A stretch of 64,000 nucleotides of DNA from Novipirellula aureliae (lineage in GTDB: Bacteria; Planctomycetota; Planctomycetia; Pirellulales; Pirellulaceae). Under the pieces are notes generated by a model. It was not told the DNA's origin. It did not search any database and worked only from the letters and a program-made list of their open reading frames with translations. Below are positions 14 through 46,775 of this stretch, in pieces (within the stretch, counting starts at the first letter, position 1; each line of letters opens with the position of its first letter). The stretch covers positions 62,001 through 126,000 of the forward strand of contig NZ_SJPY01000005.1 of the NCBI RefSeq assembly GCF_007860185.1. The letters run 5' to 3'. The position numbers and the translations under genes are program-made.

Positions 14-59
14 TCCTCCACTCCGCTCCCAGACTCCCCCTCTCCCACCTCCCCCTCTT
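14..59. repeat. C-strand short-repeat array at window edge
   Basis: C-rich run made of CTCCC units (for example CTCCCAGACTCCCC) directly upstream of the cusB start. It belongs to the same family as the arrays at 2468-2590, 3881-3998, 7486-7554 and 17473-17584. Any matching G-strand arm would lie left of the window. Confidence 0.7.
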
Positions 60-82: not shown

Positions 83-2086
83 ATGCGCACTGGTGTGCAA
101 GCAGCAACGGTCGTCATCGTCGCCGGTCTTGTGTTTTTCTTACTCGGTGTCGCACAGCGAACGAAGTGGTTGACTGCCGATGGTTTTTCGGACGGCCAAG
201 GCGAATCAATCGCAGAAGCCGGTGGCGGCGAAGACAAACGGTACATCTGCCCGATGATGTGTACGCCACCGTCCACAGAACCAGGTCGCTGCCCCGTCTG
301 TGCGATGGAACTGGTCGAAGCGACAGGTGGCGGTGGCGGCGATGGTATCTCGGTCACCATCGAAGCATCCGCACGGCGATTGGTCGGTATTCAAACCGCG
401 ATGTCGAAGATGGGCGAAGTCAATCGAACGATCCGCACCATCGGCTCGATCGACTTCGATGAAAGCCAACTGTCGACCATCAGTGCGTACATCGACGGCC
501 GCTTGGAAAAGATGTACGCGAACTACGCCGGTGTGAAAGTCAATGAAGGCGACGACCTTGCGTTGATCTACAGCCCCCAACTCTACACCGCACAAACCGA
601 GTTCATCACAAGCATGAACAGCGATGGCAAGATTGGTCGCTTTCAAATCTCTGGCGGCGATCTGAACAAGATGGCTCGGGAGAATTTGACTGAACTGGGT
701 ATGACGGAAAGTCAGATCGACCAATTGGGGAGGTCGGGTAAGCCAATGTCGCGTATCCGTATCAAGTCACCGCAGAGTGGAACAGTGATCGAGAAGTCGG
801 CTGTTGAAGGCGACTACGTCAAAACGGGACACAAGCTCTACCGAGTAGCCGACCTGAGCAGTGTTTGGTTGATGCTTGATCTGTTTCCCGACGACGCATC
901 GGCTGTTCGTTTCGGCCAACAAGTTGAAGCGGAAATTCAGTCGATGCCCGGCGAAGTATTCACGGGCCGCGTCGCTTTCATTGACCCCACCGTGAACTCG
1001 AAGACTCGAACGGTACGCGTCCGTGTCGAGATCATGAACTTCGACGGCAAACTGCGACCAGGCGACTACGCGACTGCTAGGGTCACCGTGCCAGCAATCC
1101 CAATGGACCAAGTTTACGATCCGGCACTGGCGAACAAATACATCAGCCCAATGCACCCGCAAGTCATCCGCGACGAACCGGGGACGTGTCCGCTTTGCGA
1201 TATGGATTTGGTGCCGACGTCGCAGCTCGGGTTCGCATCAGAGCCTTTGCCGATGCAGCAAGTCGTGACTGTGCCGCGCGACGCCGTGCTTCTGGCTGGT
1301 GAAAACAGCGTGATCTATGTCGAAACCGAACCCGGTCGTTTTGAGATTCGCCGAGTGACGGTCGGTCCCATGAATCGAAAAGAAGCAGTGATTGTGGAAG
1401 GACTTTCGGCTGGCGAGACGGTTGCAATAGGTGGCAATTTCTTGATCGACTCACAAATGCAGCTCGCCGGAAACCCATCGTTGATGGACCCGACGAAGGC
1501 ACCGAGCTATTCGCCAGGACCGCTTGAGCTTCCCAATTCCATCCCGGTCATGCTGGCGACCGACGCTGGTAAAACGCTTGATCGCACCTACGACGCCTAC
1601 TTCGAGATTCAATGTGCGATGGCGGCCGACCAAACGCCTCCGCCCGTCGCCTTGAACACTCTGATTGCAGGACTCCGCGAACTGGAAATGTCGGCTGGCG
1701 TCCCCGACGATGCCCAACGCAAGTTCGCAATTGCCCGCCGTGCGGCGTCTCGCATGGATGGATCTTTGGAAACCGCTCGCGAAGCTTACCGCGGCGTCAG
1801 TCACGCGATGTTGAAAGCGGCGACGGTTGCTCGTGGCCCGAAGACGGCCGTGAAGCTAACGCACTACTACTGTCCGATGGTTCCCGGTGGAGGTGGCGAC
1901 TGGATGCAGCCCGGCGGCGATTTGCAGAACCCGTATTGGGGCAGTGAGATGCTGACGTGCGGGGAGCTAGTGAGGGAGTTGGGAGTGAGGGAGTTGGGAG
2001 TGAAGGAGTTGGGAGTGAAGGAGTTGGGAGTTGGAAGTGGCGAGCGTCAGCTTGCTGCTGGTATGCATCCAGGAGACGTGAAATGA
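83..2086 (+). CDS. cusB: CusB-like efflux RND periplasmic adaptor with two heavy-metal-binding modules
   Basis: Membrane fusion protein that would link an inner-membrane RND pump to an outer-membrane channel for Cu(I)/Ag(I) export. Residues 7-24 form an N-terminal membrane anchor. Two heavy-metal-binding modules are visible: residues 54-78 (ICPMMC then CPVCAMEL) and about 353-377 (SPMHPQ then CPLCDMDL), the second inside the adaptor body. A third Cys motif, YYCPMV, lies near residue 594. Barrel-sandwich/lipoyl sequence is visible around residues 230-300. The last ~40 residues are coded by a 15-nt repeat (VRELG/VKELG units) and do not look like family sequence. The TGA stop overlaps the next start (ATGA). 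ATG 83 places the membrane anchor at the N terminus; no clear ribosome site is seen because the upstream DNA is a repeat array. Adaptor assignment is secure; metal specificity (Cu/Ag) is inferred from neighbours. Confidence 0.92.
   Translation: MRTGVQAATVVIVAGLVFFLLGVAQRTKWLTADGFSDGQGESIAEAGGGEDKRYICPMMCTPPSTEPGRCPVCAMELVEATGGGGGDGISVTIEASARRLVGIQTAMSKMGEVNRTIRTIGSIDFDESQLSTISAYIDGRLEKMYANYAGVKVNEGDDLALIYSPQLYTAQTEFITSMNSDGKIGRFQISGGDLNKMARENLTELGMTESQIDQLGRSGKPMSRIRIKSPQSGTVIEKSAVEGDYVKTGHKLYRVADLSSVWLMLDLFPDDASAVRFGQQVEAEIQSMPGEVFTGRVAFIDPTVNSKTRTVRVRVEIMNFDGKLRPGDYATARVTVPAIPMDQVYDPALANKYISPMHPQVIRDEPGTCPLCDMDLVPTSQLGFASEPLPMQQVVTVPRDAVLLAGENSVIYVETEPGRFEIRRVTVGPMNRKEAVIVEGLSAGETVAIGGNFLIDSQMQLAGNPSLMDPTKAPSYSPGPLELPNSIPVMLATDAGKTLDRTYDAYFEIQCAMAADQTPPPVALNTLIAGLRELEMSAGVPDDAQRKFAIARRAASRMDGSLETAREAYRGVSHAMLKAATVARGPKTAVKLTHYYCPMVPGGGGDWMQPGGDLQNPYWGSEMLTCGELVRELGVRELGVKELGVKELGVGSGERQLAAGMHPGDVK
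1961..2036 (+). repeat. 15-nt G-rich tandem array in the cusB 3' end
   Basis: About four copies of a 15-nt unit (GAGTTGGGAGTGAGG and variants). The length is a multiple of three, so the reading frame of cusB is kept and a VRELG/VKELG pentapeptide repeat results. The G-rich strand is the coding strand and has at least four GGG runs with 4-nt spacers, which fits a G-quadruplex pattern just upstream of the next gene's ribosome binding site. Confidence 0.85.
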
Positions 2087-2611
2087 AAGAGAGAGTGAGA
2101 AACCATCGTGAATTGATCGTCTATCAGAAATCGTTTGCGGCGGGAAAACGGGTTTTTGAACTGTCGAAAGCGTTTCCTCGTGAGGAAATGTACTCGTTGA
2201 CGGATCAAGTGAGGCGGGCGTCGCGGAGTGTGAGTGCGAACATTGCGGAGGCTTGGCGAAAGCGACGTTATGAGAAGCATTTCTGTAGCACACTGAATAT
2301 CGCCGAGGCGGAAGCAGCAGAAACGCAAGTCTGGCTGGACTACGCAGCCGCGCATGGCTACTTGGACGAAGCAACTGCGGCAAAAGCCAACGAATACTAC
2401 GAAGAAATTCTTCGGATGATCGTGAAGATGATTCACGGTTCGTCGAACTGGTGCGATTTGAAGAGCAAGGGAGAGTCGGGGAGTCGGGGAGCAGGGGAGC
2501 AGGGGAGTGACTATCGGACGGATGACGAATACGTCGTGGTTGACCAACACAAGCTTCTCTCCCCATCTCCCGATCTCCCAGACTCCCCTTCGAAATCAGA
2601 AGGGGACGGCA

Positions 2612-2619
<8 letters not shown>
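2083..2619 (+). CDS. Four-helix-bundle protein (S23 intervening-sequence / Avd-like family)
   Basis: Residues 1-126 match the small four-helix-bundle family (23S rRNA intervening-sequence proteins, related to the Avd accessory protein of diversity-generating retroelements): HRELIVYQKS near the N terminus, then LTDQVRRASRSVSANIAEAW, then a long Glu/Ala-rich helix pair. Family members are usually about 115-130 residues; here a tail of ~50 residues is coded by G- and C-strand repeats (2468-2590) and is not family sequence. The ATG at 2083 is preceded by AGGAGACGTGAA and overlaps the cusB stop as ATGA; the gene's TAA overlaps the cusA GTG start by 8 nt. It therefore sits translationally coupled inside a cusBA operon where no such protein is expected. 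The molecular function of the family is not established. Repeats lie on both sides, suggesting arrival as a cassette. Confidence 0.85.
2468..2590. repeat. Inverted short-repeat arrays (G arm, spacer, C arm)
   Basis: G arm at about 2468-2507 (units GGGGAGTC/GGGGAGCA), a spacer of about 45 nt, and a C arm at 2555-2590 (CTCCCC, CTCCCG, CTCCCAGA, CTCCCC). The arms are complementary over most of their length, so the RNA could fold into a long hairpin. The element forms the 3' end of the four-helix-bundle gene and ends 22 nt before the cusA GTG. Confidence 0.8.
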
Positions 2620-6208
<3,589 letters not shown>

Positions 6209-6223: not shown

Positions 6224-6319
6224 ATGAAGAAATCAACAACTCGGGCATCTAACATTCACAACCTCACCGACGGACCCAACGGATGGAGTCCTGACTTTCA
6301 CAATGGAGCTCTCCCATGA
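6224..6319 (+). CDS. Possible 31-codon leader peptide
   Basis: A 31-residue reading frame (begins MKKSTTRASN, ends HNGALP) fills the gap between cusA and the YHS protein; its TGA overlaps the next ATG as ATGA (6316-6319). The overlap suggests translational coupling, but there is no recognisable ribosome site for its own start and nothing in the peptide identifies a function. It may be chance. Confidence 0.25.
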   Translation: MKKSTTRASNIHNLTDGPNGWSPDFHNGALP

Positions 6320-7476
6320 AACGAACACTTATTATCACTGCTTTCTCACTCGCGATGACCGCATCGAGCGTGTTTGGGCAAACGATTCAATCGCAGCACG
6401 ATCACGCTCAGCACAACCACGCGATGCCGGGCATGACGCAGGCTCGCGAAGTAACTCAAGCGGGACCGCATGGTGGCAGCTTGAAACAAACCGGCAACCT
6501 GCAAATCGAAACGATCGTTTCCCAAGGCGGGCTGCAAATGTTCGTCTTCGACCGCGCTGGCCAACCAGTCTCGGTCGATCAGGGACGCGGTGCTGTCTCG
6601 GTGCGAGTGGAAGGCAACGCGAAACGTTATCGCTACGACTTGCTTCCCGATGGCAAAGGAGCACTGACGGCTCCGGTGAACCTTTCGCAGCTTGCTGGCC
6701 GACAAATCGACGTCGATATTCAGTTGGTCGGCATAAAGGCCTCCGGCGGGAACACTGTTAGCTTCAATGAAGTTGCAACGGTGCCCGCGAGCGAACAGCA
6801 ACTCGCTGCAGCAGCGATCGCACTTCAGAAAATCTGCCCCGTCAGCGGCAAGCCACTTGGTAGTATGGGCGATCCAGTGGCCGTCGATGTGAACGGACAG
6901 AAGCTCTACGTTTGCTGTGCAGGCTGTGTTAGCGAGGTCGAGTCAAATCCGACCAAGTATGCCGCCGGACGTCCGCAAATCACCGTTACCACCGCAACCC
7001 AAGCCGACGCAGCGGCCATTGCGGCCCAAAAGGTTTGTCCCGTGATGGATGAACCGCTCGGCGGCATGGGCACACCGATCAAAGTGATGGTTGGTGACAA
7101 GCCGATCTATCTATGCTGCAAAGGATGTATCAAGAAGATTCAAGCCGAGCCAGCCAAGTATCTGGCGATGGTTTACGGAGAGCAGATGGGGAGAGGGGGA
7201 GACAAGGAGTCAGGGAGTGTTGCGGCCGGGTCGGAAGCGGTGCGGGAAGGTGTCTTCAAAGTCACCGCGGCCGACGCAACATTCATCGCAGCACAAAAGA
7301 AATGTCCCGTGATGGACGAACCGCTTGATGCGATGGGTGGGCCTTACAAAGTCAACGCGGATGGAAAGGCGATCTACATCTGCTGTCCCGGTTGCGCAAA
7401 GAAGATCGCAGCCGAGCCGCAAAAGTGGTTGGCTGTGTTGAAGTCACAAGGAGTCGAAGCGCCAACAATTCGCTAG
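6316..7476 (+). CDS. Secreted protein with three YHS-like Cys modules, probable periplasmic metal binder
   Basis: Residues 1-21 are a signal peptide ending in SVFGQ. A His/Met-rich stretch follows (HDHAQHNHAMPGM), then a ~120-residue beta-rich domain. Three YHS/TRASH-like modules follow at about residues 173-215, 239-283 and 329-373, each with a C-P-V start, an LG/LD-x-MG middle and a C-C-x-G-C end (YVCCAGC, YLCCKGC, YICCPGC). Such modules bind soft metals, so a periplasmic copper-binding role beside CusBA is likely. Modules 2 and 3 are nearly identical, pointing to a recent duplication; the linker between them holds a repeat-coded stretch (7184-7219). GGAGCTCT precedes the ATG. The gene follows cusA by 107 nt and is probably in the same operon. 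Confidence 0.8.
   Translation: MKRTLIITAFSLAMTASSVFGQTIQSQHDHAQHNHAMPGMTQAREVTQAGPHGGSLKQTGNLQIETIVSQGGLQMFVFDRAGQPVSVDQGRGAVSVRVEGNAKRYRYDLLPDGKGALTAPVNLSQLAGRQIDVDIQLVGIKASGGNTVSFNEVATVPASEQQLAAAAIALQKICPVSGKPLGSMGDPVAVDVNGQKLYVCCAGCVSEVESNPTKYAAGRPQITVTTATQADAAAIAAQKVCPVMDEPLGGMGTPIKVMVGDKPIYLCCKGCIKKIQAEPAKYLAMVYGEQMGRGGDKESGSVAAGSEAVREGVFKVTAADATFIAAQKKCPVMDEPLDAMGGPYKVNADGKAIYICCPGCAKKIAAEPQKWLAVLKSQGVEAPTIR
7184..7219 (+). repeat. G-strand short repeat inside the YHS protein gene
   Basis: GATGGGGAGAGGGGGAG followed by AAGGAGTCAGGGAGTG, in frame, coding a Gly/Arg/Ser-rich linker between the second and third YHS modules. Same family as the other GGGAG arrays, but with no C arm. Confidence 0.65.
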
Positions 7477-7485
7477 GAATAGACA

Positions 7486-7554
7486 GGGAGCTTGGAGAGG
7501 GGGAGTCTGGGAGTTGAATCGCTCCCCATCTCCCAGACTCACTCTCTCCCCCTC
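7486..7554. repeat. Intergenic inverted short-repeat arrays
   Basis: G arm GAGAGGGGGAGTCTGGGAG (7495-7513), 16-nt spacer, C arm beginning CTCCCAGACTCACTCTC and ending in CCCCCTC (7530-7554). The arms pair with a short bulge to form a strong hairpin downstream of the YHS protein gene, where it could also work as a transcription stop or RNA 3' end stabiliser. There is no T-run. Confidence 0.8.
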
Positions 7555-15903: not shown

Positions 15904-17400
15904 TCACATCATCATCTTAGTCGCGGCTTCGTACTCACCAGGGTCACCGAAGCGTCGAACGATCTCAGCAAAAACCGCACCTTTTTCAACTGGCTGGTCG
16001 CTGTTCATCACCAACTCATACAGGTCGTCTGGAAGGACACGCAGCACAGTCATCAATCCCTTGACCGACATCGCGTAATTCGCTCGCATTCCGCGAACCT
16101 CTTTTCGGCTCCAAATCGCCTTCATAAATTCCTTGGACATCTCCATGCCCTGCATCTTCTGTGGGTAGCCTGGCGTCGCGAACTTGTCGCCTCGTGAAGG
16201 GTCGACTTGGGGCCGGCTGCTGAGATTCGCGAGGTACTGGTCGACCGAAGCGTCATTGCGAATTCGCGGTCCAACTTGTTTGACCATGTGGTTCATCATG
16301 TGATGGACCATGTGACAATGAAAAATCCAATCGCCGGGGTTGTTGGCGATGAACTCGAAGCTTGATGCTTGAGCGACACCCACCAGTTCATTGTTACGTG
16401 GCACCCAAGCACTCTTGGGAATGCGAGCTCCTTCGTGGCCGGTCACCCAAAAGGTGTGTCCGTGCAAGTGGACCGGGTGGTGTTGCATCGGGGCGAAATT
16501 CAACAGTCGCACACGAACACGTTCGCCGTGCTTGCAAACCAACGGCGTCGTGTAGGGACCACTCTTGCCGTTAATCGTGTGCCAATTCCAATCCATCGCC
16601 CACGAATCGCTGATCGTGTGCGTCGGCGGAACATGAAAATTCTGGAACAGCAATCCGAAATCACGATCCACTGGCGGGTCGAAGACTTTCTTGGGATGGA
16701 CGATGAACCATCCGACTTGCCCAAACGCTTCTTGCATCGCAACATGCGAGTGATAGAAGAACGTGCCTTCTTCATGGATGTCGAACTCAAATACTTTCGT
16801 CTTTCCAGGCTTGATCGGGTTCTGTGTCAACGTGGCGGCTCCGTCATACTGAACGGGCAGCTCAAAACCGTGCCAATGCACGAACGTATCTTCCGGCAAT
16901 TCATTGGTCACGATGATGCGAACACGGTCGCCTTGCGTGACTTCGATCGTCGGGCCAGGCATGCTGCCATTGTAACCGTAGACGTTCATTTTCACGCCGG
17001 GATGGAATTCTTGCTGAACCGCCATCGGCACAAGCTCGAACACCTTGACACCGTTGTCCAGTTTGTAAGGCAGCTTCGCGATGTCGGGAGCCTCGAACGG
17101 CGCAGGGCCATCAGCGGCTTTGCGAAAACCCGGAACCAGCTTGCCGATGTAATAGTCGGAATCGGGATCGAGACCGCGACTGGGCTTGAACCGAGAGAAT
17201 CCGTCGTACTCGGAGGCTGGGAGACGGGGAGAAAGGGAGTCTGGGAGTGAAGGAGTGGGGGAGTTAGGAGTGGGGGAGCTGGAAGCGGGTTGCTGCGCGT
17301 CGATGTTGCCGCCGAGCAAGTTGGTGAAAAAGCCGGTTGCCGCAGCGATCGAGCCCGCTTTCAAGAATTTTCGTCGTTGTTTAGTATTCGACATGTTCAA
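15904..17400 (-). CDS. Tat-exported multicopper oxidase
   Basis: 498 residues. The N terminus QRRKFLKAGS is a twin-arginine signal. All four His clusters are present: HWHG (about 174), HSH (about 216), HPVHLHGHTF (about 304-313) and HCHMVHHMMNHM (about 360-371), giving the trinuclear site and the type 1 copper ligands (Cys in HCH). Such periplasmic enzymes oxidise Cu(I) to the less toxic Cu(II). Residues about 37-62 are coded by GGGAG repeats (17213-17286) and form a Ser/Pro-rich linker between the signal and the first domain. A ~130-residue C-terminal extension after the last copper cluster has no recognised fold. Likely cotranscribed with tolC upstream and csoR downstream. Confidence 0.92.
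   Translation of the reverse strand: MNMSNTKQRRKFLKAGSIAAATGFFTNLLGGNIDAQQPASSSPTPNSPTPSLPDSLSPRLPASEYDGFSRFKPSRGLDPDSDYYIGKLVPGFRKAADGPAPFEAPDIAKLPYKLDNGVKVFELVPMAVQQEFHPGVKMNVYGYNGSMPGPTIEVTQGDRVRIIVTNELPEDTFVHWHGFELPVQYDGAATLTQNPIKPGKTKVFEFDIHEEGTFFYHSHVAMQEAFGQVGWFIVHPKKVFDPPVDRDFGLLFQNFHVPPTHTISDSWAMDWNWHTINGKSGPYTTPLVCKHGERVRVRLLNFAPMQHHPVHLHGHTFWVTGHEGARIPKSAWVPRNNELVGVAQASSFEFIANNPGDWIFHCHMVHHMMNHMVKQVGPRIRNDASVDQYLANLSSRPQVDPSRGDKFATPGYPQKMQGMEMSKEFMKAIWSRKEVRGMRANYAMSVKGLMTVLRVLPDDLYELVMNSDQPVEKGAVFAEIVRRFGDPGEYEAATKMMM
17213..17286 (+). repeat. G-strand short-repeat array inside the oxidase gene
   Basis: Units GGCTGGGAGACGGGGAG, AAAGGGAGTCTGGGAGTG and GGGGGAGTTAGGAGTG read on the plus strand; the oxidase gene is on the minus strand and reads the C-strand, giving Ser/Pro/Leu-rich codons. 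It opposes the C-strand array at 17473-17584, the two enclosing the oxidase start region. Confidence 0.75.
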
Positions 17401-17472
17401 GTTCTCTTAACAGATTGATAGTGTTTCGATTCGCGTAAATTGTGATGAATAGTGGAACGAAAAGGCACGCGA

Positions 17473-17584
17473 CTCCCAGACTCCCCATCTCCCAGACTCC
17501 CCTCCTCCCAGACTCCCCATCTCCCAGACTCCCCATCTCCCAGACTCCCCATCTCCCAGACTCCCCTCCTACCAGACTCCCCAT
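17473..17584 (+). repeat. Seven tandem copies of a 16-nt repeat
   Basis: Unit CTCCCAGACTCCCCAT, seven consecutive copies with few changes (copies 2 and 6 end in TC; copy 7 starts CTACC). Each unit is two 8-mers of the form CTCCCnnn. It fills the gap between the tolC stop (17590) and the oxidase start (17400). Confidence 0.95.
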
Positions 17585-46585: not shown

Positions 46586-46716
46586 TTGGTTCGCTCGTTG
46601 TTGGGGAATATGGGTTGAAGAAAGTGTACCGAACCAGAACCAACCGCTGCAATGGCTGGGGTGGAGCCTTCGAGCGATTCCGCGAGACGCAGGAAGAGCC
46701 AAGTGGCATAGCGAAT

Positions 46717-46775
46717 GCTCCCAACTCCTTTGCTCCCAACTCCTTTGCTCCCAACTCCTTTGCTCCCAACTCTTA
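46717..46775 (+). repeat. 15-nt tandem repeat between mgtE and the Rieske gene
   Basis: Unit GCTCCCAACTCCTTT, three full copies and a partial one. Its reverse complement contains GGGAGC and resembles the cusB-end array, so it is the only member of the GGGAG family found outside the copper region. It ends 3 nt before the mgtE stop. Confidence 0.85.

Follow-up and report, generated by a model that had tools for sequence, protein, structure and literature searches.

A four-helix-bundle gene with mirrored repeat arrays in a planctomycete copper efflux operon: a putative mobile single-gene cassette

The gene and its arrays between cusB and cusA

The 64,000-nucleotide stretch of Novipirellula aureliae DNA analysed here (contig NZ_SJPY01000005.1, positions 62,001 to 126,000; the whole stretch is called the window) contains a copper efflux operon in which a small gene of the four-helix-bundle (4HB) family lies between cusB and cusA, bordered by short-unit tandem arrays. 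The gene and its arrays are together termed the cassette. The original prediction, made from the sequence alone, described this 4HB gene, the GGGAG arrays at both of its ends and its coupling to cusB and cusA; profile searches, gene overlaps and Tandem Repeats Finder (TRF) confirm that description. The features of the cassette region, in window positions, are as follows.

83 to 2086, forward strand: cusB, encoding the periplasmic adaptor protein of a metal pump of the CusBA type (PF16576, E 4e-69; exact start uncertain)
1961 to 2038, forward strand: left arm, a GGGAGTT/GGGAGTGA tandem array whose coding strand is rich in G (TRF score 112)
2083 to 2466, forward strand: S23/IVP four-helix-bundle core (PF05635, 105 bits; AlphaFold2 model)
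2467 to 2619, forward strand: C-terminal tail of the 4HB reading frame, translated through the right arm; its end and the start of cusA have 8 nt in common
2468 to 2508, forward strand: right arm, direct part, GGGAGTCG/GGGAGCAG units (TRF, period 8)
2559 to 2590, reverse strand: inverted part of the right arm, with CTCCC units reverse-complementary to the core of the left arm (arm score 13.5)
2612 to 6208, forward strand: cusA, resistance-nodulation-division (RND) pump (TIGR00914, 849 bits), with a GTG start within the end of the 4HB frame

The open reading frame (ORF) at 2083–2619 on the forward strand encodes 178 amino acids. Profile searches place it in PF05635 (105.3 bits, cut-off 33.8) and in TIGR02436, the S23/IVP family (99.7 bits, cut-off 24), and give weak scores with two profiles for Avd, the accessory protein of diversity-generating retroelements (DGRs): 21.8 bits with bAvd (cut-off 40) and 23.2 bits with DivGenRetAVD (cut-off 80). 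The AlphaFold2 monomer of the core has four helices and a pLDDT of 94.4. Its best Foldseek matches are 2gsc (Xcc0516), with a TM score (query) of 0.80–0.84, and 2rld, with 0.74–0.76; the next is Avd of the Bordetella phage (4dwl; TM 0.75, 14% identity). For Xcc0516, a homopentameric ring is mentioned in a passage of PMC4990558.

The gene is interlocked with both neighbours. The cusB frame ends at 2086 and shares a 4-nt ATGA overlap with the 4HB start at 2083, while the 4HB stop codon (TAA, 2617–2619) lies beyond the cusA GTG start at 2612, giving an 8-nt overlap. The same 8-nt overlap is present in 10 of 12 other cus-associated 4HB ORFs examined (the window ORF excluded), with right arms of differing length; the two without it belong to one rearranged locus and one contig end. 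Selection for cusA translation probably holds the array lengths in frame, as judged from loci that are not independent of one another. As the arrays are free of stop codons, the reading frames stay open: the final ~40 codons of cusB traverse the left array, and the C-terminal extensions of both CusB and the 4HB protein are frames translated through arrays, just as the original prediction had proposed for these two tails.

TRF places the left array at 1969–2031, with a 15-nt unit (7+8), 97% matches and a score of 112; the left arm begins at the CusB codons for CGE. The right stretch consists of a direct GGGAG array (2469–2507), a spacer of ~50 nt and the CTCCC array proper (2559–2587). The unit of the window cassette is ~8 nt, GGGAGTNN. 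A second copy of the cassette, in a second cus operon of the same genome, has an arm score of 46. By their arm scores, 13.5 for the window and 13.0 for L004, the window cassette is a degenerate example of the mirrored frame described below.

Occupied and empty sites, and other contexts

The 4HB gene between cusB and cusA is an insertion. A query with the CusB C-terminus found 67 places in 58 of 149 Pirellulaceae genomes, all of which were inspected, and a site was called empty where cusA follows within 300 nt. Fifty sites are empty, eight hold a 4HB gene in sense orientation (L152, L163, L167, L168, L173, L186, L217 and L044), one holds it reversed (L169), and eight are without a call (five contig ends and three long gaps lacking a 4HB gene). 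Eight more occupied loci (L072–L078 and L080), obtained from the 4HB search, are included in the trees and lie outside the 67-site count; sense-oriented occupied sites number 16 in total. On the CusB tree (74 rows), occupancy changes at least nine times, five of these changes being forced by well-supported branches, against 13.8 with shuffled labels.

The CusB proteins of three empty sites (L153, L157 and L159) are 96% identical to that of the window. L153 matches the window up to TGCGGGGA (around position 1965) and then again from the first cusA codons, from which it follows that the insert replaced the last 20–22 CusB codons and a 16-nt spacer. The left array is absent from the empty site, and L174 holds an array remnant without a 4HB gene. 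That the cassette entered without breaking the operon, as originally proposed, agrees with the many empty cusB–cusA pairs and with the retained overlap at cusA.

In the same-genus loci L168 and L169, CusB is 90% identical and the 4HB protein 67%; the L169 gene is reversed, has another array unit and is preceded by a longer, native CusB tail. CusB and 4HB identities are uncorrelated over 120 pairs of occupied operons (rho 0.17, p 0.06; 16 rows, with L169 included and L072 left out). Strain TBK1r has a relative 80% identical outside the cusB–cusA gap, at a distance of ~3 kb from a cusB (L079), and Neorhodopirellula pilleata has a relative of 72% identity elsewhere (L081).

These data bear on the proposal that the cus operon has domesticated the 4HB protein as a subunit or regulator. 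Its overlaps with both neighbours, the conservation of the cusA overlap despite unequal right arms and the 16 sense-oriented sites would suit such a role, but 50 of the 67 sites lack the gene, one carries it backwards, and relatives at 50–62% identity occupy other contexts in several phyla. Domestication is very unlikely.

Two observations concern other cus operons. In Rhodopirellula europaea 6C (L072, 3881–9385), the operon is rearranged, with the CusB C-terminus and the 4HB gene facing an inverted cusA, more cusB and arrays nearby; this arrangement may be an assembly error. In the distant cus operons L213 and L216, another small ORF, cysteine-rich with a CPVSGEP/CCAGC motif, lies between cusB and cusA, and by eye it resembles the gene at 6316–7476 of the window.

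Across the family, neighbours are mostly co-directional with the 4HB gene (upstream 82/93, downstream 76/93; crude ORF caller, no matched control). At ten distant loci, the downstream ORF encodes an RND pump (two, L142 and L129), a UDP-GlcNAc 2-epimerase (two), an NAD-dependent epimerase (two), a nucleotidyl transferase (two) or a cytidylyltransferase-like protein (one), and one has no match. A phage table of PMC5524665 lists the gene order guanylate kinase–4HB–adenylyltransferase. The two pump-associated genes are distant planctomycete relatives that precede the pump gene. The original prediction would have been refuted by a conserved repeat-free 4HB gene between adaptor and pump in distant genomes, and no clear case was found: L129 (59% identity) has strong arms of another unit, with a score of 40, and L142 (56%) has weak ones, with 13.0.

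The genome of the window also contains three 4HB genes that run antisense inside a cluster of 28 one-strand tRNA genes (L219, C5:244000–256000), and in another genome (L058) one 4HB gene lies opposite 14 tRNA genes. No rRNA match was obtained in 20 sampled loci, nor in the window at the Rfam gathering score. Intragenomic copies occur on different contigs (L326 and L327, 84% identical over 710 bp, with the left arm in common), and in L324, L326 and L327 (G250) the ~150 nt between the heptamer array and the 4HB start codon are well conserved. Neorhodopirellula pilleata has seven 4HB copies of ~610 bp that are 82–98% identical in DNA (L311–L317; L331, 3545–4172 and 10571–11195). They resemble proof of transposition, but the two examined for this, at C7:61–69 kb, sit in an integron-like array of small-gene cassettes in which a similar right end follows another gene, so they were not counted as self-mobility.

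Mirrored arms with private units across the family

Mirrored arrays are a general feature of the 4HB family, present at the majority of the relatives examined from several bacterial phyla. Scores came from aligning the DNA upstream of a 4HB gene with the reverse-complemented DNA downstream of it, and a cut-off of 15 was used for the three later sets and the controls (99th percentile of the controls, 14.96). In a first set of 109 loci, which counts one gene twice (L002/L004), the median arm score was 18.5 within loci and 9.0 after swapping, and 71 loci scored above the 99th percentile obtained with 416 shifted windows. A phylum-wide planctomycete sample, in which the family is present in 58 of 119 genomes, yielded mirrored arms with units of 6–9 nt at 23 of 26 PF05635 loci (30 loci, the best per genome, less four with cut or incomplete flanks). 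Ten genomes reached via known loci gave 20 of 30, seven of these loci having been seen before and some genomes having been picked for their arrays. In the genome of the window, 8 of 10 loci are above the cut-off (of 11 loci one is cut; L001 belongs to the first set as well). The controls behave differently: ParE toxin genes from the same phylum draw gave 0/29, with one locus left out and one scoring 13.5, and only 5/380 shifted windows passed.

The enrichment of arrays near 4HB genes anticipated by the original prediction is strong when arrays other than GGGAG are counted too. As a general unit, GGGAG proved too narrow; it is the unit of this lineage. Such arrays accompany only 2 of the 11 PF05635 genes in the genome of the window, so that a GGGAG-only definition misses most of the family. 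On a plasmid of Oscillatoria nigro-viridis PCC 7112 (L388), a 4HB gene has short arrays on both sides that, by eye, are direct, not inverted.

The kinship with Avd suggested earlier holds for the fold and not for the frame. None of nine loci matching only bAvd has mirrored arms (7 of 19 places were dropped for cut flanks; three were also PF05635 matches, two of them with arms). A reverse-transcriptase, DGR-like system acting via an Avd-like protein could draw on the shared four-helix-bundle fold and the match to 4dwl, but the cassette protein scores below the Avd cut-offs, bAvd-only genes lack the arrays, and RVT_1 has no match in 4 of 17 family-carrying genomes. One of these four genomes holds 14 copies of the family, and two are below 97% completeness or have no completeness stated. 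The genome of the window has three RVT_1 matches, on contigs C9 and C14, and none on the window contig C5. This explanation has only the slightest probability.

Each locus keeps a private unit that is matched between its arms. In G182 and G183, with ten loci each, own arms match at 19 of 20 loci and arms of other loci in the same genome in 2 of 180 comparisons; both crossed matches come from L349 and L350, which duplicated recently and are 88% identical over 452 bp. Periods were analysed for 107 distinct proteins with a clear period, those with 48% identity or more being called window-type. Both arms are equal in period in 69 of 72 cases; the period is 8 for 52 of 59 window-type proteins and 7 for 31 of the 48 others. 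On the protein tree, unit length changes 20 times, against 36.4 with shuffled labels (0/200 shuffles as low); an 87-row version, before G182 and G183 were added, gave 9 changes against 26.1. These two genomes weaken a simple 7-versus-8 split, and the unit-length signal is still significant.

The same results address the idea that small orphan genes merely persist in slippage-prone spacers, with the arrays as by-products and the protein without a role. Short tandem arrays have indeed been described elsewhere. Heptamer repeats were reported from Xanthomonas and Nostoc (GGGAATC, GGGGAYT; PMC4692102) and TAACTGA repeats from Beggiatoaceae (PMC4679880), all as dispersed short arrays, which in Xanthomonas often form convergent inverted pairs, like the solo hairpins described below. 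The terms 'four helix' and 'S23' are found in the main text of neither paper, and the relevant passages of both make no link to the 4HB family. GGGAG arrays also occur far from any PF05635 gene in the genome of the window. A passenger gene leaves unexplained, however, why ParE and bAvd-only genes fail the identical arm test, why private units agree between arms and why unit length tracks the protein tree; this account is improbable.

The closest published relatives are the intervening sequences (IVSs) of 23S rRNA genes. According to passages of PMC4990558, the Coxiella IVS carries an S23 ORF preceded by heptamer repeats, is bounded by an inverted terminal stem, is cleaved by RNase III and has been called selfish; hypotheses of mobility were put forward earlier, and the role of the IVS is left unclear there. 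The S23 family is common to the cassette and to the IVSs of Coxiella, Leptospira and Brucella described in those passages, and so are terminal inverted repeats in the family at large, those of the window cassette scoring below the cut-off. Unlike them, the cassette sits between protein genes, cusB and cusA, outside any 23S rRNA gene, and its arms are arrays with private units and without a signature of RNA pairing.

In a model at the RNA level, as for the published IVSs, the arms would pair in the operon mRNA and RNase III would cleave the resulting stem; the element would persist through its removal from the transcript or through being tolerated there. The sister cassette in the second cus operon folds far beyond its shuffles (z -8.6, 0/20 as good), and the upstream neighbour is co-directional in most loci, a count without a matched control. 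The window cassette, in contrast, folds with a z of only -1.5, and 2 of 20 shuffles are as good; 4HB genes lie antisense to tRNAs within a tRNA cluster, and L169 is reversed. Pairing of the arms in RNA would favour G.U over A.C differences on the sense strand, and no such excess was seen at 125 loci (185 versus 208, p 0.27; ambiguity of the within-array register blunts this test and does not bias it), which speaks against upkeep through RNA. The order of variant units is mirrored between arms more strongly than in swapped loci (84 loci, mean gain 4.15; 150 swaps, mean gain 2.14; p 7e-6); the swapped-locus control replaced a unit-order shuffle test that is biased because the segment is picked as the best alignment. 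The lack of a G.U excess together with mirrored unit order favours copying at the DNA level, and an element maintained through its RNA is rather unlikely.

Gene-less hairpins and the nature of the cassette

Clusters of at least three GGGAG/CTCCC motifs number 12 in the window, against a mean of 0.1 and a maximum of 1 in 50 mononucleotide shuffles, and 11 of the 12 fall within its first 17.6 kb. Besides the arms of the cassette, the window contains these arrays:

26 to 53, reverse strand: CTCCC array close to where the cusB frame begins; its partner GGGAG array lies just upstream of the window (L218)
3874 to 4005, forward strand: solo array hairpin lacking a 4HB gene, read in frame as part of a CusA loop (GGGAG 3885–3953, CTCCC 3970–3998)
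7486 to 7550, forward strand: solo array hairpin (GGGAG 7486–7513, CTCCC 7522–7550)
17219 to 17581, forward strand: array pair 195 nt apart, no 4HB gene between (GGGAG 17219–17278, CTCCC 17473–17581)

A perfect 15-nt tandem array, TGCTCCCAACTCCTT, at 46716–46772 is distant from the cus operon and has no partner array in the window.

Among 16 neighbouring array pairs without a 4HB gene between them, 14 run from GGGAG to CTCCC, two are on the same strand and none has the reverse order (two of the 16 are right arms adjoining a 4HB gene). CusA-loop arrays are found, by a fixed in-frame criterion, in 10 of 16 operons with a 4HB gene (L169 included) and in 2 of 45 without (p 5e-6); L343, L345 and L346 have long CusA loops that fall below the criterion. 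In 4 of 13 cases, the 4HB arms that the loop unit matches best are those of the same operon (mean rank 4.8 of 13). By eye, both insertion points, the CusB CGE codons and the CusA E/D-W-E codons, start at native GGGAG-containing codons.

Taken together, these features are best read as an IVS-type selfish, mobile single-gene cassette that lives between the genes of operons and whose arms are copied onto each other at the DNA level, a reading to which we assign a probability of roughly 0.6. Such a cassette would consist of one S23/IVP four-helix-bundle gene and two inverted short-unit arrays, with its expression riding on the host operon. One arm might be copied in inverted form onto the other, through hairpin or template-switch synthesis, and this copying, together with slippage, would keep the arms alike. 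The 4HB protein, probably a ring, might bind the arrays, promote arm copying and promote the seeding of new arrays at GGGAG-like spots such as the CusB CGE and CusA E/D-W-E codons. The mode of movement and the writing of repeats by the protein are what we infer; for the earlier proposal that the 4HB protein spreads the repeats, the evidence is suggestive only. In REP-RAYT and MITE-type elements, too, a gene that has terminal repeats is accompanied by smaller hairpins that carry no gene. The cassette differs from them in having no transposase match and a unit that is private to the locus, not genome-wide.

Several points weigh against a mobile, protein-maintained cassette. No transposition event was observed, and interleaved occupancy cannot by itself separate gains from losses. 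No target-site duplication was recognised at the insert, which replaced the CusB tail; no catalytic domain was found in the cassette, and no transposase domain gave a profile match. The 4HB core, with a charge of +3 (the median is 0 among 107 family domains), is near neutral and not an obvious nucleic-acid binder by charge. Arms fall below the cut-off in a minority of loci (3/26 and 10/30), and of four plasmid loci, one has direct arrays (L388) and one has none (L390). In the window itself, the arms share the GGGAG core and not the exact unit, and their score of 13.5 lies just under the 99th percentile of the controls, 14.96. Period 8 is also found for 12 of the 48 proteins that are not window-type, and unit length could track the protein merely through joint inheritance of arms and gene. 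The 4HB-free operons L162 and L187 also carry CusA-loop hairpins, and the link between loop and gene fails phylogenetic independence: five supported contrasts give a median p of 0.5, on average 2.8 pointing the same way, 0.3 the other way and 1.9 showing no difference.

In a bolder view, possible but doubtful, S23/IVP proteins would write DNA repeats or act as rulers for them: the gene would build and homogenise a mirrored array whose sequence is free and whose unit length is set by the protein, and would seed the gene-less hairpins. If true, these genes and their arrays would represent a new class of selfish element that lacks a transposase and occurs across several bacterial phyla. No report linking mirrored arrays to the 4HB family outside rRNA was found in the literature covered, which left out most subscription papers and all bioRxiv preprints.

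PF05635 genes are frequent and are annotated merely as 'four helix bundle protein' or 'S23 ribosomal protein'. The family-wide mirrored frame with its private units is a clue that gene and arrays form one unit. The cassette offers an origin for some of the heptamer and octamer arrays that have been reported without explanation, and its arrays can lengthen host proteins, as in the CusB tail and the CusA loop, without breaking the operon.

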